DNA of 64,000 bases from Luteimonas deserti (lineage in GTDB: Bacteria; Pseudomonadota; Gammaproteobacteria; Xanthomonadales; Xanthomonadaceae). A program made the position numbers and the translations under genes. The notes beneath the pieces are model-generated. The model made no database searches. It saw nothing but the letters and a program-made list of their open reading frames with translations, and was not told where the DNA came from. Of this stretch, positions 3,907 to 45,563 are shown piece after piece (position 1 is the first letter of the stretch; the number at the start of each line of letters is the position of its first letter). Where the stretch lies: contig NZ_JACCJZ010000020.1 in the NCBI RefSeq assembly GCF_013425765.1, positions 496,001-560,000 on the forward strand, in the 5' to 3' direction.

Positions 3907-4146
3907 ATGAGCAACATCGAAGAGCGCGTCAAGAAAATCGTCATCGAACAGCTGGGCGTGAAGGAAGACGAGGTCAGCAACAGCGCTTCGTTCGTCGACG
4001 ATCTCGGCGCAGACTCGCTGGACACCGTCGAGCTGGTGATGGCGCTGGAAGAAGAATTCGAGTGCGAGATTCCGGACGAGGAAGCCGAGAAGATCACCTC
4101 GGTGCAGCAGGCGATCGATTACATCAAGGCGCACACCAAGGGCTGA
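3907..4146 (+). CDS. acpP: acyl carrier protein (AcpP)
   Basis: A 79-residue acidic carrier protein that shuttles acyl chains on a 4'-phosphopantetheine arm. The attachment serine is Ser37 in the classic [10 protein letters not shown] motif, inside the usual four-helix fold sequence. The 129-base gap upstream of the ATG holds a TACACT sequence at 3866-3871 that could be a -10 element, so acpP may also have its own promoter in addition to readthrough from fabG, which is common because ACP is very abundant. fabF follows after a gap containing a strong hairpin. Confidence 0.97.
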
Positions 4147-4303: not shown

Positions 4304-5545
4304 ATGGCCAAGCGCCGCGTCGTGATCACGGGCATCGGCATCCTCTCGCCGCTGGGCAACGACCTGGCCTCGAGCTGGGACGGCATCGTCAACGGTCGTT
4401 CGGGCATCGGTCCGATCACCCATTTCGACGCGTCGAACTTCGCCACGCGCATCGCAGGCGAGGTGAAGGGCTTCGACGCCACCCAGTGGATCGCGCCCAA
4501 GGACGTCAAGAAGATGGATCCCTTCGTCCACTACGGCGTCGCCGGCGGACTGATGGCGATCGCCGACGCCGGTCTCGCGATCCGTGATGCGGACGACGCC
4601 GAGCGGATCGGGGTCGCGATCGGTGCGGGCATCGGTGGCCTCAAGGGCATCGAGGACACCGCGATCAAGTACCACGAGGGCGGTCCGCGCAAGATCTCGC
4701 CGTTCTACGTGCCGTCGACGATCATCAACATGATCTCCGGCCAGGTTTCGATCATGACCGGGGCGAAGGGTCCCAACATCGCCGCGGTCACCGCCTGCAC
4801 CACGGCCACGCACAACATCGGCCTGGCGATGCGCATGATCCAGTACGGCGATGCGGACGTGATGATCGCCGGCGGCGCCGAGTTCGCCACCACGCCGACA
4901 TCGGTGGGCGGGTTCTGTTCGATGAAGGCCCTGTCCACCCGCAACGACGATCCCACCGGTGCGTCGCGTCCCTGGGACCAGGAACGCGACGGCTTCGTCA
5001 TGGGCGATGGCGCAGGCGTGCTGGTGCTGGAAGAGTACGAGCGGGCCAAGGCGCGCGGCGCGCGCATCTACGCCGAGCTTGCCGGCTTCGGCATGAGCGG
5101 CGACGCCTTCCACATGACCGCACCGGCCGAGAACGGCGAGGGTGGTGGGCGCTGCATGCGCGCGGCGATCCGCGATGCGGGCATCGATCCGTCGCAGATC
5201 GGCTACATCAACGCCCACGGAACGTCGACGCCGGCCGGCGACGTCGCCGAGACGATGGGGATCAAGGGTGTACTGGGCGAGCACGCGTCGAAGGTCATGG
5301 TCAGCTCCACCAAGTCGATGACCGGCCACCTCCTCGGCGCAGCCGGCGGCGTGGAGGCGGTGTTCTCCGTGATGGCCCTGCACACCGGCGTGATCCCGCC
5401 GACGATCAACCTCGAGCATCCGGGCGAGGGTTGCGATCTCGACTACGTGCCGCACACCGCGCGCGAGCATCAGGTGGAGTACGTGATGTCGAACTCCTTC
5501 GGCTTCGGCGGCACCAACGGCTCGCTGGTGTTCCGCAAGGTCTGA
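4304..5545 (+). CDS. fabF: beta-ketoacyl-ACP synthase II (FabF)
   Basis: FabF elongates acyl-ACP by decarboxylative Claisen condensation with malonyl-ACP. The 413-residue sequence shows the nucleophilic Cys in [10 protein letters not shown], the first active-site His in [11 protein letters not shown] and the second in [15 protein letters not shown], plus the C-terminal [10 protein letters not shown]. This is the KAS II type (Cys-His-His), not FabH type. A GGAG Shine-Dalgarno precedes the ATG. It is the last gene of the fab cluster and is followed 25 bases later by a rho-independent terminator. Confidence 0.96.
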
Positions 5546-5570
5546 GCGCGGTCTTTCGCGTCTGCAGCAG

Positions 5571-5592
5571 AAGGCCCGCGGAAGCGGGCCTT
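5571..5592 (+). terminator. Terminator after fabF
   Basis: A 9-bp perfect stem, AAGGCCCGC paired with GCGGGCCTT around a GGAA tetraloop, lies 25 bases past the fabF stop and is followed by TTCG-rich sequence (the T run is short). It closes the fab operon. The stretch from here to 5825 shows no gene I can support. Confidence 0.75.
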
Positions 5593-5825
5593 CGTTCGCC
5601 GGACGGGCCGACCTCGTCGGTGCGATCCCGCTGCCCGCGGCGGTTCGGTCACGAAGCGTGGCGGTGTCGGCGCCGACGCTGCCGCGATGGGCGCGATCGC
5701 AAATTTCGCGGTCGGTTCGCAGGCGACACGCAGTCCGGCCGCGTCTTCAGTCGACCCGTCGGGCGCAGGCGCGGCGGTCATGCATCCATCGATCCGCCGC
5801 GGGAAGACGGAGCCGTCGCGTTCCC

Positions 5826-7193
5826 TCAGCCGCGCTTCCAGCGCACGCCCTGAGGCGTGTCCTCGAGCACGATCTTCTCGGCGGCGAGCTGGTCGCGGAT
5901 GGCGTCCGCGCGGGTGAAGTCGCGGGCCTGTTTGGCCGCGACGCGCTCGTCCACCAGGGCCTGGATACGGGCGTCGTCGTCCTCGCTCACACCCCGGGCG
6001 AACCAGTCGGCCGGCGCCTGCTGCAGAAGGCCAAGCGCACGCCCGGCGCCGAGCAGGTCGGCCTTCAGCGCGGCCCGCGTCACGGAATCGCCGGCCCTGC
6101 GCGCCTCGCCTGCGATCCGCGCGAGCTCGGCCAGTGCGGCCGGCGTGTTGAGGTCTTCGTCGAGCGCGGCTTCGATGCTGGCCGGGATATGCGGCGTGGC
6201 ATCGACGTCGGCCAGGTCGCGCAGCGTGCCGTAGAGCCGGTCGAGCGTGCGCACCGATTGCTCGATCAGCGCATCGGACCAGTCGAGGGGCTGGCGGTAG
6301 TGCGCGGACAGAAGGGAGTAACGCAGCGCTTCGGGCGGATGGGCCCGGACCAGGTCGTGCACCCGCTCGATGTTGCCGACCGACTTGGACATCTTGCTGC
6401 CGGCGAAGGTGAGCATGCCGTTGTGCAGCCAGACCCGTGCGAACGGCGCCCCGCCATGGGCGCACTCGCTCTGCGCGATCTCGTTCTCGTGGTGCGGAAA
6501 CTGCAGGTCGACGCCGCCCGCGTGGATGTCGATCGTCTCGCCGAGATGCGCCGCCGCCATTGCCGAACATTCGATGTGCCAGCCCGGTCGACCCCGGCCC
6601 CAGGGCGAATCCCAGCCCGGCAGGGCGTCGGTGCTCGGCTTCCACAACACGAAATCGCCGGCACCGCGCTTGTACGGCGCCACTTCGATGCGGGCACCGG
6701 CGAGCATGTCGTCGAGCTCGCGCCGCGACAGCTTGCCGTAGCCCGCATAGCTGTCCACCGCGAACAGCACGTGACCCTCGGCCGCATAGGCGTGGCCCGT
6801 CTCGATCAGGCGCTCGATCATCGCGATGATCTCGGCGATGTGCGCGGTCGCGGCCGGTTCGATGTCCGGCGGGGCGATCCCGAGCGCCGCCATGTCCTCG
6901 CGATAGGCCGCCGCGAACCGGTCGGTGATCGCGGCGATCGGCACGCCCTGTTCCTGCGCCGCGGCATTGATCTTGTCGTCCACGTCGGTGATGTTGCGCG
7001 CGTATCGAAGCCCGCCGTGACGGCGCCGCAGCAGGTCGGCGAGCACGCCGAACACGACCGGGCCGCGCGCGTTGCCGATGTGTACGTAGTTGTAGACCGT
7101 GGGACCGCAGACGTAGAGCGTGGGGCAGGCGGGATCGAGCGGCGCGAACGGCTCCAACTGGCGGCTGAGGCTGTTGTACAGGTGGAGGGGCAT
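5826..7193 (-). CDS. cysS: cysteinyl-tRNA synthetase (CysS)
   Basis: A class I aminoacyl-tRNA synthetase that charges tRNA-Cys. The 455-residue protein carries the zinc-ligand Cys in the N-terminal [18 protein letters not shown] block, whose HIGN is the HIGH motif, further metal-site residues in [10 protein letters not shown] and HHENE, and the KMSKS motif in [10 protein letters not shown]. It is transcribed on the minus strand, convergent with fabF and divergent from the exported-protein gene at 7341. The length is normal for bacterial CysRS (about 460). Confidence 0.96.
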
Positions 7194-38900: not shown

Positions 38901-39001
38901 GCGCCACCGTGTGGGCTCGCATGGGCGCGCAGACCCGGCCCCGGTTTGCGCGGACGCCGATCGCGGGCATGATCCGGTGACCTGACCCGGGAGTGCCAAG
39001 G

Positions 39002-40555
39002 ATGCGCCTGCCCACCATCGCCCTGACGTCCGCGCTCGTGCTGGCGATCGCATCGGCCCACGCCGAGCGCCCCGTCTATCCGTTCACCACGCAGGCGCGG
39101 TTCGATTCCACCGCGGTGCCGGCCTACGCCGGCCGCCACGACGCGGTCTACGCGCACATCGACGCGCAGCAAGATGCGCACATTGCACAGCTGCAGCGCT
39201 GGGTGCGCCAGCGCTCGATCAGTGCCGAGAACGACGGCATCGACGCGATGGCCGATCTGCTGGCCGAGGATCTGCGCGGGCTGGGCTTCCAGGAGGTGCG
39301 TCGGGTGGAGACACCCGGCCATCCGGGCGTGCTCGGCCACTACGACGCCGGCGCGCCGGTCACGCTGGTGGTCTACATGATGTACGACGTGCAGCCGGTC
39401 GAGCCGAACTGGCGGATCGCCGATCCCTTCGCCGGCGAGCTGGTCGACCACGAGTTCGGCACCGTGCTGATGGCGCGTGGCGCGATGAACCAGAAAGGCC
39501 CGCAACGGGCATTTCTCAATGCGGTCGCGTCGATGCTGGCGGTCGACGGCACCTTGCCGGTCAACCTCTACGTCGTCGCCGAGGGCGAGGAGGAACTGGG
39601 TTCGCCGAACTTCGGTGCGGTACTGGCGCCCTGGCGCGAGCGGCTGCGCGCGGCCGACGGCGCGTTCTTTCCGATGCTGGTGCAGAGCGCCGCGGGCGAT
39701 GCCCAGCTCAACCTCGGCGTGAAGGGCATCATCTATTTCGAACTCGAAGCGCGTGGCGGTGCGCGCGGCGGTCCGACCCGCGCGGAGATCCACGGCTCGT
39801 TCAAGTCCCTGGTCGACGCACCGGCGCTGCGCCTGGTGCAGGCCATCGCCTCGCTGACCTCGGCCGATGGCAATACGGTGGCGATTCCCGGCTACTACGA
39901 GGCGGTCACTCCGCCCACCGAAGCCGAGCAGTCCCTGGTCAACGCGCTGGCCGCGGATGTCGACGACGCCGCGCTGCAGCGCTCGCTCGGGGTGGAGCGC
40001 TGGGTGGACGGGCTGACCGGGCGCGAGGCCATCGTGCGCAACCTGTGGGAGCCGACGCTCAATATCGACGGCCTGTGGAGCGGCTACACCGGCGAGGGCA
40101 TGAAGACCATCCTCCCGCACGTGGCCACGGCCAAGCTGGACTCGCGCCTGCCGCCCGGCCTCGAGCCCGACGCCGCCTACGCGATGATCCGCGCGCACCT
40201 GGACGCAGGCGGCTTCAGGGACATCGTGCTGCGTCCGCTGTCGGGCTATCCGGCCGCGTCGACCGCCGCCGACACGCCGCTGGTGCAGGCCGCGATCGGC
40301 GTCTTCAACAAATACGGCGTCAAGGCGCGCGTGGCGCCGTGGCTCGCGGGCAGCGCGCCGTTCTACCAGTTCACGCGCACGCTGGACCTGCCGTTCGTGT
40401 TCGGCGGCCTGGGCCACGGCTGGGGCGCACACGGGCCGGACGAGTACATGCTGATCCGCCCGGCCGAGGGCGTGGGTGCGGCGGGCCTGGCCGAGGTCGA
40501 GAAGTCCTATGTCGACCTGCTGCACGCGCTGGCCGAGGGTGCCCGCGCGCAATGA
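39002..40555 (+). CDS. Secreted M20-family metallopeptidase
   Basis: A 517-residue M20 (carnosinase/CPG2-like) peptidase with a signal peptide (LTSALVLAIASAHA, cleavage near residue 21), so it probably works in the periplasm or outside. Catalytic metal motifs are MMYDVQPVEPN, VLMARGAMNQKGP and VVAEGEEELGSPN, with the C-terminal GLGHGWGAHGPDEYM containing a histidine ligand. I chose the ATG at 39002, which follows GGGAG; the GTG three codons upstream is less likely. The GNAT gene overlaps its stop and the borosin-type methyltransferase gene follows, all in one direction. A role in peptide maturation is possible but unproven; general peptide scavenging is the default. Confidence 0.85.
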   Translation: MRLPTIALTSALVLAIASAHAERPVYPFTTQARFDSTAVPAYAGRHDAVYAHIDAQQDAHIAQLQRWVRQRSISAENDGIDAMADLLAEDLRGLGFQEVRRVETPGHPGVLGHYDAGAPVTLVVYMMYDVQPVEPNWRIADPFAGELVDHEFGTVLMARGAMNQKGPQRAFLNAVASMLAVDGTLPVNLYVVAEGEEELGSPNFGAVLAPWRERLRAADGAFFPMLVQSAAGDAQLNLGVKGIIYFELEARGGARGGPTRAEIHGSFKSLVDAPALRLVQAIASLTSADGNTVAIPGYYEAVTPPTEAEQSLVNALAADVDDAALQRSLGVERWVDGLTGREAIVRNLWEPTLNIDGLWSGYTGEGMKTILPHVATAKLDSRLPPGLEPDAAYAMIRAHLDAGGFRDIVLRPLSGYPAASTAADTPLVQAAIGVFNKYGVKARVAPWLAGSAPFYQFTRTLDLPFVFGGLGHGWGAHGPDEYMLIRPAEGVGAAGLAEVEKSYVDLLHALAEGARAQ

Positions 40556-41115
40556 GCGGCGATGGCGGGCGCGTCGATGTGTCGGCGGTCTGGCCCGGCG
40601 CGTTCACCACCACGCGTCTGCGGGCCACACCGCTGTGCGAGGCCGATGGCGCGCTGTTCGCCGCGCTGTACGGCGATGCGGAGACGATGGCGCAGGTCGG
40701 CGCGCCGCTCGACGCGGACGCCGCGGGCCGCGCACTGGCGGCCGCGCTGCGCCAGATGCGCAGTGAGCCGCCCAGGGCGCGCTATTGGCGGCTGGACGAA
40801 GGGCCGCACGCTCTCGGGCTGTTGTCGCTGGTGGTCGACGCGGCGCGGACGACGGCCGAGACCGGCCTGCTGTTGGGCGCAGGCGCGCGCGCAAGGGGAA
40901 TTGCCCGCGAAGCGCTGACGGCGCTGCTGCCGTACGTGCTCGGCACCGGTGGCCTCGATGCTGTGTGGACGCGCCATCGGACCGGCCACACCGCGGCGGA
41001 GGGCCTGATGCAGTCGCTCGGATTCGCGCCGCTCGATGCCGAGGCCGGCTGGATACGCTGGCGGATGGACCGGACGCGCCTGCAGCCGCTTGCCGCGACG
41101 CCGGTCACAGTCTAG
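40552..41115 (+). CDS. GNAT family N-acetyltransferase
   Basis: A 187-residue acetyltransferase of the RimJ/RimL-like GNAT type. TTRLRATPLCEADGALFAALYGD is the usual N-terminal segment. The acetyl-CoA pyrophosphate-binding loop appears as GAGARARGIAREALTALL, and the last helix-strand pair GLMQSLGFAPL is typical. The acceptor substrate is unknown. Its ATG overlaps the peptidase stop and it ends 32 bases before the methyltransferase gene. It could therefore belong to the same transcriptional unit as the borosin-like locus. Confidence 0.82.
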   Translation: MSGDGGRVDVSAVWPGAFTTTRLRATPLCEADGALFAALYGDAETMAQVGAPLDADAAGRALAAALRQMRSEPPRARYWRLDEGPHALGLLSLVVDAARTTAETGLLLGAGARARGIAREALTALLPYVLGTGGLDAVWTRHRTGHTAAEGLMQSLGFAPLDAEAGWIRWRMDRTRLQPLAATPVTV

Positions 41116-41147: not shown

Positions 41148-41927
41148 ATGGGCAGCCAGGGCCGATTGGCCTGTGTGGGTGTGGGCATGATGCTGGGCGC
41201 GCACCTGGGGCCCCGGGCCCGCCGCCACATCGAGACCGCGGACGTGGTGTTCGTCGCCGTCTCCGACCCGTTGGTGGAGCAGTGGGTGATGCGAATGAAC
41301 CCCGACTGCCGCAGCCTGCAGCCGTTCTATCGCGAAGGCCGGTCGCGCCACCGCACCTATGCCGACATGGTCGAGGCGATGCTCGCCGAGGTCCGCGCTG
41401 GGCGCGAGGTCTGCGGGGCCTTCTACGGCCATCCGGGCGTGTTCGCCCGCGTGCCGCACCGGGCGATCGCCGCCGCGCGCGCCGAGGGCTTCCAGGCCGT
41501 GATGGAGCCGGGCATTTCGGCCGAGGACTGCCTGTATGCGGATCTGGGCGTCGACCCGGGCGAGGTCGGCTGCCAGCACTACGAGGCCAGCCAGTTCATG
41601 TTCTACCGCCGCGTCACCGATCCCTCCGCGTGGCTGGTGCTGTGGCAGGTGGGCGTGGCCGGAATCCGCGACACAGGCCGTTTCAGCAATACGGCCGCCG
41701 AGCGGGCGCTGCTGGTCGACCGTTTGTCGGAGGACTACCCCCTGGACCATGTCGTGACACTCTATGAAGCTGCTACGCTCGCGGTCGCGCGGCCCCGGGT
41801 GGAGCGGGTGCCGCTCAGGGGGCTCGTCGACGCCGCGCTGCACCAGCACACCACGCTCGTGGTGCCGCCGGGGCGGGCGATGGCGCGGAACGAAGCGATG
41901 TGGGCAGCCGCGGGTACCGGTGCGTGA
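41148..41927 (+). CDS. Borosin-type peptide backbone alpha-N-methyltransferase (split, stand-alone)
   Basis: A 259-residue SAM-dependent enzyme of the tetrapyrrole-methylase fold. The SAM loop LACVGVGMMLGAHLGPRA opens it. From memory the following blocks match the fungal omphalotin enzyme OphMA almost position by position: YREGRSRHRTYADM (61-74), FYGHPGVFA (92-100), GISAEDCLYADLGVDP (122-137), GCQHYEASQFMFYRR (141-155), VLWQVGVAGI (164-173). Tyr61, Arg67, Tyr71 and Tyr93 correspond to the catalytic Tyr66, Arg72, Tyr76 and Tyr98 of OphMA. In this family the enzyme methylates backbone amides of a peptide. Unlike fungal borosins, no precursor is fused at the C-terminus (it ends MWAAAGTGA), so the substrate must be supplied in trans, as in bacterial split borosins. 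The ATG at 41148 gives the family N-terminus, with a GGGGGGCGG stretch upstream. Confidence 0.9.
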   Translation: MGSQGRLACVGVGMMLGAHLGPRARRHIETADVVFVAVSDPLVEQWVMRMNPDCRSLQPFYREGRSRHRTYADMVEAMLAEVRAGREVCGAFYGHPGVFARVPHRAIAAARAEGFQAVMEPGISAEDCLYADLGVDPGEVGCQHYEASQFMFYRRVTDPSAWLVLWQVGVAGIRDTGRFSNTAAERALLVDRLSEDYPLDHVVTLYEAATLAVARPRVERVPLRGLVDAALHQHTTLVVPPGRAMARNEAMWAAAGTGA

Positions 41928-41971
41928 GTCAGGTGTCCGCGGTGCCACCGTGTAGAACCAAGGGGGAATGA

Positions 41972-42208
41972 ATGTTGGATGTGATCGCGGAACTTGAAGC
42001 CTACGGCATGGAGACGGCGTTCAACGTCGAAGTCGGAAGCTCCACAACGTTTGAGAGCGGCCAGTGGAATCTGCGACTCGGTTCGTCGGTGATGGCTTGT
42101 CTGATCATGACGCCAGACGGCGGAGAGACCGAACCACAGAGCGATCAACCGGATCAGGACGATGACGGTAAGCGGGACGAGGATGAGCAGGCCCCACTGG
42201 ACGCGTAA
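41972..42208 (+). CDS. Candidate borosin precursor peptide (78 aa)
   Basis: This small gene starts 44 bases after the methyltransferase gene, and AAGGGGGA lies just upstream of its ATG, one of the best ribosome sites in the window. The peptide has three parts: a short helix-like start (LDVIAELEAYGMETA, residues 2-16); a middle with GSS at 22-24 and again at 37-39, the second leading into the hydrophobic VMACLIM (40-46); and a very acidic tail in which 13 of the last 30 residues are Asp or Glu. Base composition is visibly less GC-rich than the neighbours. I do not recognise it as one of the helical borosin-binding-domain precursors. The proposal that residues about 38-48 form the methylated core and the acidic tail a follower is inference. 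It could instead be an unrelated small acidic protein. Confidence 0.65.
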   Translation: MLDVIAELEAYGMETAFNVEVGSSTTFESGQWNLRLGSSVMACLIMTPDGGETEPQSDQPDQDDDGKRDEDEQAPLDA

Positions 42209-44072
42209 GTCCGATTCTTCGTGGCGACGAGCGTTCGGCAGAGAGCGCCTGTTCGTATTTGCGCTTGTGCTTGCATTCTTCGGATGTGGACCATTGCAAG
42301 CGCAGCCATCATTGGATCGGCTGATTCAGGACGCCGATGCAGTGCGAACTTCGGATGCTCGCCGTTTTGCGGAGCTTCTGGGGCAAATCGACGCACTGGC
42401 CGAACAGGCGACGGCGCGACAGATCAACCGTATCCGTATGCTTCGGGTCCACCAGTCGATCACGACCGGACGTTCGGCAGAAGCGATCGTAGAGCTCAGA
42501 CGGATCCTCGTCGATGCAGTGGACGCAGAGACTCGGTTTCTCGCAGCGTCCATGCTCGCAAATACGCACGCCGTCCAACGCCAGTTCGAGGACTCCCTCC
42601 GCGCGTTGGATGCCATGCTTCCGCTCGTCGAAGGCGTCGAGGATCGCGAACTCCGGCACCGTGGACTGATGGTCGCGGCGATCGTCTACAACCAGGTGGG
42701 CGAATACGGGCTTGCCTTGCGCCACGTCGAGACCGTGGCCCAGGACCAGCCTGTACCGCGGACCGTCTGTGCGATCGGGAGCATCACGCTGGAGGCGAAG
42801 AACGGGCTGGGTCAGTCGTTCGACGATCGCATGGCCCACGACGTGCTGGAGAAATGCGCCGACGAGCCGATCTTCGCGGCATTCGTGCGCTGGCATCTCG
42901 CCCGCCAGATGGAAGCCCAGGGACGTTTGAGCGACGCGATCGCCCTCCTGACCCGCCACTTGCCGGAGGTCGAGGCCACCGGGTATCCCTTCATCATCGC
43001 GCAGTACCACGCCGCGCTGGCGGAGCTGTCGATGAAGGCCGGCGAGCCGGCCGCGGCACGGGTCCATTCCGACAAGGCACTGTCGATCAGCACGGAGGCC
43101 ATGTCGGCCGAAGCGATCGTCAAGGCGCACCATGTGCAGTACCTGCTCGCACTGCAGGGCAACGACATGGAGTCCGCGCTGTCTGCCTACAGGCTGTACG
43201 CCGAAGCCGAGCGTGCGCACTTCAATGACGTGAAGTCGCGCGAGATGGCCTATCAGGTCGTGCGCCACCAGTCGCTGCAGCAGGCGCAGCAGATCGAGCT
43301 GCTGCATCAGAAGAACGAAGTTCTGGAACTGCAGAAGCGGGTGACCGAGCAGCGTGCGCAGAACTGGCTGTTGCTGGCGTTGGTGCTCGTCGCCGGCATG
43401 ACCTCGGTCGGCTACTGGGCCTACAAGACGAAGCGGCTGCAGGTGCGCCTGAAGCGCATGACCGAGACCGATGCGCTGACCGGAATCTGCAACCGGCAGC
43501 ATTTTTCCGAGCGCGCGGGCAGTGCGCTCGCGCAGTGCGAGCGCGCTGGCGAACCTGCCGTGCTGGTCATGTTCGATCTCGATCACTTCAAGCAGGTCAA
43601 CGACCGCTTCGGGCATGCCGCCGGAGACTGGGCCTTGCGTCAGGTCGCCGATGCGGTGCGTCCGCTGTGCCGGGGAATCGACGCATTCGGGCGCCTGGGC
43701 GGAGAGGAGTTCGCCCTGTTTCTCCCCGGTCTCGATGCGTCGGCGGCAGCGCGCCTGGCGAACGATGCCCAGGTCCGGATCCAGGCGATCGACGGCGCGG
43801 AGGATGGCTACGCGTTCCGTATCACCGCGAGTTTCGGTGTGGCCGACGTGGCCGATGGGCAGTACGACCTGACCTCGCTGATGCGTCAGGCCGATCAGGC
43901 GATGTATGCCGCAAAGCGCGGCGGCCGACGCCAGGTGCGCATCTACGATTCGGCGCTGGAGTCCGATGACGGCCCTCCGCCGCCGGTGGAGCTGCTGCGG
44001 GGTGTGGCACGGGACCCGGTGCCGGCGGCGACGACGCCCGCAGGCGCCGACGCGCGACGCGCGATCGCCTGA
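42183..44072 (+). CDS. TPR-transmembrane-GGDEF diguanylate cyclase
   Basis: A 629-residue enzyme predicted to make cyclic di-GMP. A signal peptide (about 1-41, FVFALVLAFFGCGPLQAQ) sends the TPR-like sensory region (about 45-360) to the periplasm. A coiled coil rich in Gln and Glu (about 365-393) and one membrane helix (about 394-415) connect it to a cytosolic GGDEF domain. The active site is intact as GGEEF at 506-510, and the product-inhibition I-site R497-x-x-D500 lies five residues before it. TDALTGICNRQHF begins the catalytic domain. I start at the ATG at 42183, which is inside the 3' end of the small peptide gene; an ATG at 42162 is also possible. Either way the two genes overlap, suggesting coupled translation. 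Confidence 0.88.
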   Translation: MSRPHWTRKSDSSWRRAFGRERLFVFALVLAFFGCGPLQAQPSLDRLIQDADAVRTSDARRFAELLGQIDALAEQATARQINRIRMLRVHQSITTGRSAEAIVELRRILVDAVDAETRFLAASMLANTHAVQRQFEDSLRALDAMLPLVEGVEDRELRHRGLMVAAIVYNQVGEYGLALRHVETVAQDQPVPRTVCAIGSITLEAKNGLGQSFDDRMAHDVLEKCADEPIFAAFVRWHLARQMEAQGRLSDAIALLTRHLPEVEATGYPFIIAQYHAALAELSMKAGEPAAARVHSDKALSISTEAMSAEAIVKAHHVQYLLALQGNDMESALSAYRLYAEAERAHFNDVKSREMAYQVVRHQSLQQAQQIELLHQKNEVLELQKRVTEQRAQNWLLLALVLVAGMTSVGYWAYKTKRLQVRLKRMTETDALTGICNRQHFSERAGSALAQCERAGEPAVLVMFDLDHFKQVNDRFGHAAGDWALRQVADAVRPLCRGIDAFGRLGGEEFALFLPGLDASAAARLANDAQVRIQAIDGAEDGYAFRITASFGVADVADGQYDLTSLMRQADQAMYAAKRGGRRQVRIYDSALESDDGPPPPVELLRGVARDPVPAATTPAGADARRAIA

Positions 44073-44102
44073 CCGGCCTGTTTCGTATGGAAGCAACCCG
44101 GT

Positions 44103-45563
44103 TCAGGCCGGGTCGCGGATCACCAGCAGGCGTTCCTCGGTCATGTCGCGGATCGCGTACTTCACGCCTTCGCGGCCGATGCCGGAATCCTTGATGCCGC
44201 CGTAGGGCATGTTGTCCACCCGGAAGCTCGGCACGTCGCCGACCACGACGCCGCCGGCCTCGATCCGGTCCCAGGCCCGCATCGCGTGGGTGAGATTGCC
44301 GGTGAACACGCCGGCCTGCAGGCCGAAGTCGCTGTCGTTCACCCGCGCGATCGCCTCGTCGAAGCTGTCGACCGGTTCCAGCAGTGCGACCGGGCCGAAG
44401 ACTTCCTTGCGCTCGAGATCCGCATCGCGCGGCACCTTCTCCAGCAGCGTCGCCGGAATGATGTTGCCCTCGCGCTTGCCGCCGGCGATGACCTTGGCGC
44501 CGGCCTTGCGGGCGGCATCGATCCAGGATTCGATCCGGTCGGCCGCATCGCTGTCGATGACCGGGCCGACGAAGGTGCTTTCGTCGCGCGGATCGCCGCT
44601 GCGCAGCGCGCCGATCGCCTTCTTGAGCTTGCGGCGCAGGGCCTCGTGCACGCTGCGGTGCGCGTAGATGCGTTGCACGCCGATGCAGCTCTGGCCGGAC
44701 TGGTAATACGCGCCGAACACGAGGCGCTCGACCACCTTGTCCAGCGGCAGGCCCGGATCCTCGTCGACGATGCAGGCCGCATTGCCGCCGAGTTCCAGCA
44801 CGACCTTCTTCTTGCCGGCGCGCGCCTTGAGATCCCAGCCGATCAGGCCGCCGGTGAAACTCAGCAGCGCGATGCGCTCGTCCTCGGTCAGTGCCGCTGC
44901 GTCCTCGTTGCTGCACGGAATCACCGAGAACGCACCCTTGGGCAGGTCGGTTTCGGCCAAAATCTCGCCGATGATCAGCGCGCCGACCGGCGTCTTCGCG
45001 GCCGGCTTGAGCACGAAGGGGCAGCCGGCCGCGATGGCCGGTGCGACCTTGTGCGCGACCAGGTTCAACGGGAAGTTGAACGGCGTGATGAAGCTGCACA
45101 CGCCGATCGGCACCCGCTTGACCATGCCGCGATAGCCGCGCGTTCGCTCGGAGATCTGCAGCTCGATCACTTCGCCTTCGCCGCGCGTGGCCTCGCCGGC
45201 GGCGATGCGGAACGTATCGATCAGGCGGGTGACTTCGCCACGCGCATCCTTGATCGGCTTGCCGGCCTCGATGCAAAGCGCCAGCGCGAGCTCCTCATAG
45301 CGTTCCTCGAAGCGGCGCACGCAGTGCTCGAGCACGTCGCGGCGCTTGTCGGGCGGGAAATCGGCCATCGGCCCGCGCGCCTTGTGCGCGGCGACGATCG
45401 CCTTGCGGATCGCCGCGGCGTCGCCCATCGCCACGCGCGTGGCGACCTTGCCGCTGTACTTGTCGCGCACCTCGAGATCGGTGTTCGCGGCCACCGCGGC
45501 ATTGGCGAGGTAGTAGGGATAGCTGCGGGCGAGGCCCGGCGTGGTCTTCGATGTCTTGGCCAT
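44103..45563 (-). CDS. NAD(P)-dependent aldehyde dehydrogenase
   Basis: A 486-residue aldehyde dehydrogenase. The general-base Glu is in KKVVLELGGNAACIVDED and the nucleophilic Cys in YYQSGQSCIGVQRIY. FITPFNFPLNLVAHKVAPAI and GFRHGR-like end regions are typical (here GIKDSGIGREGVKYA). Its sequence is closest in feel to the lactaldehyde/glyceraldehyde/phosphonoacetaldehyde group; the substrate is not assigned. It sits 32 bases downstream of the acetolactate-synthase-like gene on the same strand, so the two are likely co-transcribed. It is convergent with the diguanylate cyclase gene; a weak ACCCGG/CCGGGT hairpin spans the junction. Confidence 0.88.
   Translation of the reverse strand: MAKTSKTTPGLARSYPYYLANAAVAANTDLEVRDKYSGKVATRVAMGDAAAIRKAIVAAHKARGPMADFPPDKRRDVLEHCVRRFEERYEELALALCIEAGKPIKDARGEVTRLIDTFRIAAGEATRGEGEVIELQISERTRGYRGMVKRVPIGVCSFITPFNFPLNLVAHKVAPAIAAGCPFVLKPAAKTPVGALIIGEILAETDLPKGAFSVIPCSNEDAAALTEDERIALLSFTGGLIGWDLKARAGKKKVVLELGGNAACIVDEDPGLPLDKVVERLVFGAYYQSGQSCIGVQRIYAHRSVHEALRRKLKKAIGALRSGDPRDESTFVGPVIDSDAADRIESWIDAARKAGAKVIAGGKREGNIIPATLLEKVPRDADLERKEVFGPVALLEPVDSFDEAIARVNDSDFGLQAGVFTGNLTHAMRAWDRIEAGGVVVGDVPSFRVDNMPYGGIKDSGIGREGVKYAIRDMTEERLLVIRDPA

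Follow-up and report, generated by a model that had tools for sequence, protein, structure and literature searches.

The gene at 41148–41927 of the window, by which we mean the whole stretch of 64,000 nucleotides of Luteimonas deserti DNA analysed here, was originally predicted to encode a stand-alone borosin-type alpha-N-methyltransferase in a 'Lysobacter-like' genome. This raises the question of which peptide such an enzyme would act on and what role the methylated product might have. As to the genome, its nearest named relatives belong mostly to Luteimonas, so that 'Luteimonas-like' is the better description. The following features are referred to in the text:

40552–41115, + strand: GNAT acetyltransferase, possible tailoring enzyme (PF13302, 3e-14)
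41148–41927, + strand: stand-alone borosin alpha-N-methyltransferase, 259 residues, with a SonM match among PDB chains and conserved catalytic residues
41850–43250, no strand: hypervariable block by identity to L002 and L003, comprising the 3' end of the enzyme gene, the precursor and most of the TPR sensor
41972–42208, + strand: separate precursor peptide, 78 residues, with a profile homolog in the loci of relatives
42086–42127, + strand: predicted core region SVMACLIMTPDGGE, with putative boundaries, aligning with the core region of relatives
42162–44072, + strand: membrane TPR-GGDEF protein, predicted diguanylate cyclase, 636 residues from the first ATG (PF00990, 2.5e-39)
42294–43361, + strand: predicted TPR sensor domain of the cyclase, all-helical according to AlphaFold2 and putatively periplasmic

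The methyltransferase and its precursor peptide

The enzyme frame opens with the ATG at 41148 and ends with a stop codon at 41927. A phmmer search against all PDB chains, of the kind proposed along with the original prediction, matches the product to SonM of Shewanella oneidensis over residues 5–258 (4.6e-74; 121 of 257 positions identical in the pairwise alignment) and to OphMA and dbOphM, fungal enzymes of the fused type, at 2e-49 to 3e-53, far ahead of the best ordinary tetrapyrrole methylase (0.0014). According to PMC8429565, SonM has a length of 263 residues and forms, together with SonA, a type IV split borosin system with solved structures, in which Y58, R67, Y71 and Y93 of SonM stabilize the substrate. 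These four residues align with Y61, R67, Y71 and Y93 of the window enzyme, the very Tyr/Arg cluster that had been singled out as catalytic, and SonM F99, E146, W166 and Q167 are likewise retained. All eight are invariant in the 64 aligned enzymes, that is, in the window enzyme and 63 relatives. SonM Q178, I234 and the top-clamp residue E173 are absent from the corresponding positions of the window enzyme in the pairwise alignment; our assessment of the substrate pocket consists of this comparison of conserved residues. The blocks FYGHPGVF, GISAEDCLYADL, YEASQF, VLWQVGVAGI and RSRHRTYADM, to which the original prediction had pointed, are all found in the enzyme, while the absence of RSRHRTYADM and YEASQF from ordinary tetrapyrrole methylases was gauged through phmmer scores.

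The enzyme belongs to PF00590 (3e-21), a membership that would also suit a methylase acting on tetrapyrroles (porphyrins or corrins) or one of the RsmI type. Its scores lead us to reject this identity, to which we assign a negligible probability: among PDB chains, SonM reaches 252 bits versus 21.5 bits for a uroporphyrin methylase, and the seven NCBIfam models listed, which include porphyrin and corrin methylases and none for RsmI, stay far under their cut-off (at best 35 bits versus 525).

At its C-terminus, the enzyme stops as SonM does, without a fused clasp or core, and a separate precursor gene adjoins it, as anticipated for a split system. OphMA shares the catalytic domain family (~1e-50), but its core is fused to the enzyme, whereas that of the window lies on the separate precursor. 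Given the homology, the catalytic residues and the adjacent precursor gene, enzyme and precursor are assigned by sequence to the known type IV split borosins. Like SonM-SonA, they combine a stand-alone enzyme of ~260 residues, the same catalytic residues and a small separate precursor next to it; unlike SonM-SonA, they feature an acidic tail after the core and an upstream GNAT gene. The enzyme is therefore less novel than had been implied, since structures of this type are already solved (PMC8429565) and a contig scan yielded 63 relatives, which span Luteimonas, Lysobacter, Pseudoxanthomonas, Dyella, Rheinheimera and Shewanella. Their fetched loci carry L numbers in the following and make up 64 loci together with the window. 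In its own genome, the enzyme gene is present in one copy.

The precursor gene is preceded by a ribosome-binding site, aaggggga at 41960–41967, as judged by eye. The small genes that accompany these enzymes have in common an N-terminus of the form MSNVIxFLExLG, a hydrophobic segment, which often contains Cys and leads into P(D/E), and a tail of acidic character. With an iterated profile, a precursor homolog is found at no more than 1e-3 in 63 of the 64 loci, including the window, the remaining one being L062 (0.0036); the window precursor itself, which is part of neither profile, reached 0.012 with the seed and 1.1e-5 with its successor. Five near relatives (L002–L006) keep the precursor frame, its first ~15 residues and the core region. 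When searched against the PDB, the precursor sequence on its own gave chance matches and did not recover SonA, and the precursor profile matched SonA chains weakly (0.0054–0.011), ranked under spurious WD-40 repeats. Because this match is weak, precursor homology rests on gene position and the iterated profiles. A search of the own genome for a second, intact precursor that might act in trans, with the precursor of one relative as query, gave no match; as this query also missed the divergent precursor of the window itself, the result carries little weight. Within the window precursor, the SVMACLIMTPDG segment is the predicted methylation target, and, judging from the sequences, the enzyme very probably methylates the backbone of this 78-residue peptide.

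The leader preceding the core comprises 36–41 residues in the window clade (38 in the window) and 56–59 in most other relatives measured, the exceptions being L041 (52 residues), L047, where the script misplaced the core, and four loci for which it detected none. Leader identity in the window clade is 0.32–0.53 where enzyme identity is 0.82–0.98; in other pairs with an enzyme identity of at least 0.88, it is 0.72–0.95, except in L029/L035 (0.59). It is the middle of the leader that varies most in the window clade, and the core is better conserved (0.58–0.79 identity to L002–L006), unlike in Shewanella. AlphaFold2 predicts a single helix (residues 3–15) at low confidence (pLDDT 66, pTM 0.22), a model in which no counterpart of SonA's five-helix borosin binding domain is evident. 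Thus, unlike SonA, the window precursor has a leader that is shorter by ~20 residues and is predicted without a helix bundle. In the window clade, the leader appears shortened and fast-evolving and the enzyme docking domain eroded, while the enzyme itself is conserved.

Some precursors of other loci show peculiarities of their own. That of L134 (3851–4333), located upstream of the enzyme, contains repeated core-like segments (xFCWVATPEE, xFCGVLTPEE), and no cyclase was found in the stretch fetched for this locus. The precursors of L031 and L037 have long Lys-rich C-terminal tails.

A GNAT homolog is located within the fetched flanks of 50 of the 64 loci. In L031 and L037, GNAT and enzyme share one open frame (492 and 476 residues; the enzyme frame spanning position 4001), which suggests that the GNAT protein acts in the pathway. 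The acetyltransferase of L004 has 55–56% amino acid identity to those of L002, L003 or the window, whereas the respective enzymes are 94–96% identical. The upstream M20 peptidase (38993–40555), considered as a maturation protease, was dropped, as it is present in only 8 of the 64 loci.

The adjacent TPR-GGDEF gene

While the original prediction was right about the type of enzyme and precursor, it overlooked a conserved TPR-GGDEF gene, which lies directly after the precursor gene and overlaps its end. The start of this gene is uncertain, with the ATG at 42183 as an alternative. Its GGDEF domain carries the motif GGEEF at residue 513 and hence the GG(D/E)EF signature of diguanylate cyclases. Hydrophobic stretches occupy residues 30–48 and 402–420, the N-terminus is basic by eye, and matches to TPR families are weak and under the cut-off. 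Modelled alone with AlphaFold2 from a 66-row alignment, the sensor domain is composed of helical hairpins and a terminal helix of 64 residues (pLDDT 91.4); two Cys columns are invariant in 66 rows and retained in 99% and 98% of 113 operons. The hydrophobic stretches, the basic N-terminus and the Cys pair would be compatible with a TPR domain that lies in the periplasm and contains a disulfide.

In a fold search with this model (Foldseek, VIA-align), the eukaryotic TPR proteins APPBP2 and APC/C rank at the top (Z 25–27). Of the bacterial proteins within the 50 entries shown, RapF, phage Rap and NprR, all receptors for peptide pheromones, match best (Z 22–24, rmsd 3.9–5.3, 301–310 residues aligned). 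By this match, the sensor has the TPR superhelix in which RRNPP receptors (Rap, NprR, AimR) bind a small peptide signal, although unrelated TPR proteins match equally well or better; the modelled fold permits peptide binding, and it does not do more than that. RRNPP receptors are cytoplasmic proteins of Gram-positive bacteria or phages with phosphatase or DNA-binding outputs. The window protein differs in its predicted membrane attachment and its GGDEF domain, and with these and its two hydrophobic stretches it does not qualify as a member of a family of cytoplasmic proteins with phosphatase or HTH effectors.

In 63 of the 64 window-type loci, the precursor is directly followed by a TPR-GGDEF homolog in the same orientation, with alignments extending from residue 59 or before to residue 592 or beyond; the record of the remaining locus, L025, stops 78 bases beyond the precursor frame. 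In 60 genomes of Shewanella, the genus of L055, we found 73 enzyme matches in 52 genomes. In all of the first 20 of these stretches (11 SonM-like, 9 window-like), the precursor is immediately followed by a GGDEF frame, whose sensor part matches that of the window at 1e-3 in 18 cases, and one locus with a cyclase carries an enzyme that is 99% identical to SonM. SonM-like loci thus resemble the window in this respect. Likewise, the operon is clean in 19 of 20 further Shewanella stretches; in the exception, L202, the GGDEF match extends over two frames after the precursor (4485–6284), as in a broken cyclase gene or through a sequencing error. No cyclase was found in the 7.7–10 kb fetched around six out of six more distant borosin enzymes (33–44% identity). 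L187 (47% identity) is rearranged, with the order precursor, a 990-residue frame with a TPR match, enzyme, and a separate GGDEF frame of 607 residues. In the own genome, the sensor domain is matched once only, whereas GGDEF domains are matched 31 times in 3.72 Mb, which, assuming ~3,400 genes, corresponds to a chance of roughly 1% for a GGDEF gene as one neighbour.

Among 198 genomes of the family, enzyme and sensor occur together in 62, the enzyme without the sensor in 15, the sensor without the enzyme in 2 and neither in 119, with thresholds of E 1e-20 for the enzyme (77 genomes) and E 1e-10 for the sensor (64 genomes); the sensor counts may be low, as many genomes had more candidates than were scored. 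Fisher's p for this co-occurrence (3e-34) ignores kinship and is therefore indicative only. Of the 81 enzyme matches, 63 are followed by a sensor in the same orientation at a distance of no more than 2.5 kb, 15 are fused with GGDEF in one open frame and 3 have neither. In the fusions, the enzyme is located at the C-terminal end (13 frames of 842–881 residues, one of 1005 and one of 579 that starts at a contig edge); a TPR sensor is recognized at 1e-3 in 6 of them, whereas in the other 9 only GGDEF and enzyme are recognized, and a SonA-like precursor frame adjoins 14 of the 15 fused genes. A borosin architecture with a GGDEF domain has already been published (Figure 1 legend of PMC11395268) and is probably the fused form as in L117–L132. 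The window has in common with it the link between GGDEF and borosin architecture; unlike in that type, the cyclase is encoded separately from the enzyme, and the TPR sensor and the precursor form the variable unit.

Precursor and cyclase remain together whether the enzyme is separate, parted from them by a GNAT gene, or fused. Two precursor-cyclase pairs are found behind one enzyme gene in L066 (Dyella), in L073, L074 and L075 (Rheinheimera) and in L069, which comes from an unclassified gammaproteobacterium. In L071, no cyclase was found, and the cyclase frame of L070 failed the motif filter. One precursor followed by two tandem TPR-cyclases occurs in L072 and L076, and also in L010, L020 and L022, while L135 and L136 have a TPR-cyclase with no enzyme or precursor match in the fetched stretch.

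Divergence and co-variation of precursor and sensor

When the window is compared with L002 and L003, nucleotide identity is 0.81–0.99 in the acetyltransferase and enzyme genes (0.86–0.99 in the latter), 0.50–0.79 over ~41850–43250, which covers the precursor and most of the sensor, and back to 0.78–0.92 at the membrane span and the first part of the GGDEF domain. A second dip to 0.60–0.78 at ~43750–44150 involves part of the GGDEF domain and the end of the cyclase gene, beyond which identity is 0.89–0.97. Against L002, L003 and L004, the pS of the N-terminal sensor region (sensor-N) is 0.69, 0.77 and 0.68, and that of the enzyme 0.19, 0.23 and 0.26; given this high synonymous divergence, relaxed constraint alone is an insufficient explanation. 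These three pairs also show an elevated GGDEF pS (0.49–0.57), so that divergence in the window extends beyond precursor and sensor. In L003/L004, the GGDEF pS is 0.14, and the edges of the block are sharper there and in Shewanella than in the window pairs.

For a broader view, 135 loci gave 130 operons, 113 of them unique; the five loci without an operon in this set are L008, whose cyclase frame opens before the enzyme and thus fell to a script rule, L025, L071, L202 and L070. The sensor-N pS exceeds the enzyme pS by at least 0.2 in 22 of 52 close pairs (enzyme identity of at least 0.90), or in 22 of the 37 with an enzyme pS below 0.5; these hypervariable pairs involve 26 operons and are non-independent. 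For 18 of these 22, sensor pS lies at least 0.2 above GGDEF pS as well, while in 6, including all three window pairs, the GGDEF pS exceeds the enzyme pS by as much. No sensor excess is seen in the other 30 close pairs, such as the flat pairs L020/L022, L017/L018, L049/L050, L034/L039 and L044/L064, although in 15 of the 30 the enzyme pS is at least 0.5 and an excess hardly detectable. The Shewanella pair L167/L168 has enzymes that are 99%, GGDEF domains that are 97% and sensor-N regions that are 40% identical; its block extends from ~950 to 2000 bases past the enzyme start, and identity dips again immediately before the enzyme gene (-250 to +50). A breakpoint of this pair precisely between leader and core was considered and dropped, since L168 carries an additional precursor that makes the site unreadable.

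When enzyme, leader and GGDEF distances are removed and the precursor next to the sensor is used, the distances of core and sensor-N are correlated across 29 SonM-type operons at a partial r of 0.52 (0 of 1999 permutations). The corresponding value is 0.03 for core and enzyme and 0.15 for core and GGDEF, a weak correlation (24 of 1999). With the first precursor after the enzyme instead, the core-sensor partial r is 0.42 and L198 is mismatched; the switch to the sensor-adjacent precursor was made after the data had been seen, and both results are therefore given. L212, for which the C-terminal sensor piece is empty, was excluded from both tests. At 60% identity, the sensors form 18 clusters, and as only 5 of these have several members, core-sensor matching can be judged in few. 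In cluster A (L167, L195, L196, L170), the core reads [AT]F[LI]LVNHGNN in four of four members, and in cluster B (L168, L169, L171, L197, L198) it reads YL[IV]ISxGxG[DE] in five of five, where both patterns were derived after clustering and L198 matches only via its second precursor, next to the sensor. L168 belongs to cluster B though its enzyme is nearly identical to that of L167 in cluster A. Across pairs with an enzyme identity of at least 0.85, median core identity is 0.76 where the sensor alleles agree (18 pairs) and 0.31 where they differ (51 pairs). In 61 window-type operons, where the first precursor was used, the whole precursor tracks the sensor at 0.34 (0 of 999 permutations) and the GGDEF domain at 0.07, a value given without permutations; this set omits L025, which has no sensor, L052, the same species and match as L051, and L062 with its weak precursor.

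Tandem precursor genes are present in L168, L198 and L214. The first precursor of L168 and of L198 resembles the core type of the other allele and is perhaps the remnant of an exchanged block.

Could these patterns arise without any contact between peptide and cyclase? The precursor and cyclase genes touch or overlap (with a median of -2 bases between the stop of the precursor and the cyclase frame), so that one recombination tract moves both, and co-segregation alone is no proof of contact. The system might then be an ordinary split borosin with the cyclase as a mere operon neighbour, its co-variation reflecting linkage in a recombination hot spot. In agreement with this, the leader also tracks the sensor, and not the core alone (partial r 0.51, 0 of 1999, in the 29 SonM-type operons), and the GGDEF domain is likewise diverged in the window pairs; linkage could indeed lie behind part of the core-sensor co-variation. 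As a full account we nevertheless find it unlikely, given that the adjacency holds from Luteimonas to Shewanella and persists when the enzyme is relocated behind a GNAT gene or into a fusion, that the precursor-cyclase pair is found duplicated, and that the sensor has diverged beyond the GGDEF domain in most hypervariable pairs, up to synonymous saturation.

Two further alternatives do give the cyclase a role. It might sense something else and control the production or release of the borosin, with c-di-GMP upstream of the peptide and not its output; RiPP operons often include their own regulators, and TPR domains bind many ligands. A regulator of production, however, need not vary with the core, which follows the sensor and not the enzyme in the SonM-type operons, and we regard this option as quite improbable. 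The peptide might also serve in antagonism or kin recognition, with the cyclase arming a response to self or non-self. The sharing of alleles across species (L167/L170 versus L168/L169) is also typical of kin-recognition loci, and nothing specific speaks against this reading; still, we hold it to be very improbable.

A possible peptide signal and its receptor

The simplest account of the observations, in our view, is that the TPR-cyclase has the methylated peptide as its ligand and that the two diversify in step, as matched alleles of ligand and receptor. The enzyme would methylate amide nitrogens in the core of the precursor with SAM, by the mechanism of SonM, and the trimmed N-methylated peptide would leave the cytoplasm. 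It would then bind to the periplasmic TPR domain of the neighbouring diguanylate cyclase in the inner membrane, and the binding signal would reach the GGEEF domain via the long helix at the C-terminal end of the sensor and through the membrane span, so as to change c-di-GMP in one direction or the other. We consider the chances evenly divided on whether the N-methylated peptide serves as a polymorphic signal for the cognate cyclase. In the window clade, it is the middle of the leader and not the core that is most variable, which fits poorly with a ligand made of the core only; the ligand may there include residues 16–38.

Core and sensor would exist as matched alleles in the manner of the agr or ComX/ComP pherotypes. 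In the agr and comQXP loci, a hypervariable ligand gene and sensor input region lie within conserved genes, the output is a histidine kinase, and the peptide chemistry differs from that of borosins. The operon described here has the same layout, with a hypervariable putative ligand and sensor input amid conserved genes, but a GGDEF domain as its output, which in the window is diverged as well.

In the main text of the SonM-SonA paper, the terms GGDEF and diguanylate do not occur (PMC8429565), and the review PMC11285071, in the sections considered here, gives no function for type IV borosins. We found no report of a borosin with a polymorphic TPR-cyclase receptor in the literature searched, although Imani 2022 and Lee 2024, which lie outside that search, may contain one.

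We therefore propose tentatively, and with confidence somewhat short of even, that split borosins are polymorphic pheromones of Gram-negative bacteria, read by a co-diversifying membrane TPR-diguanylate cyclase, with alleles exchanged between species. A conserved neighbouring cyclase with a core-matched sensor offers a concrete and testable role for the split borosin peptide. If the proposal is true, the locus would represent a RiPP-to-c-di-GMP system in which backbone N-methylation matures the signal, and it would add to c-di-GMP signalling a branch that senses peptides, together with a collection of ligands and receptors paired by nature.
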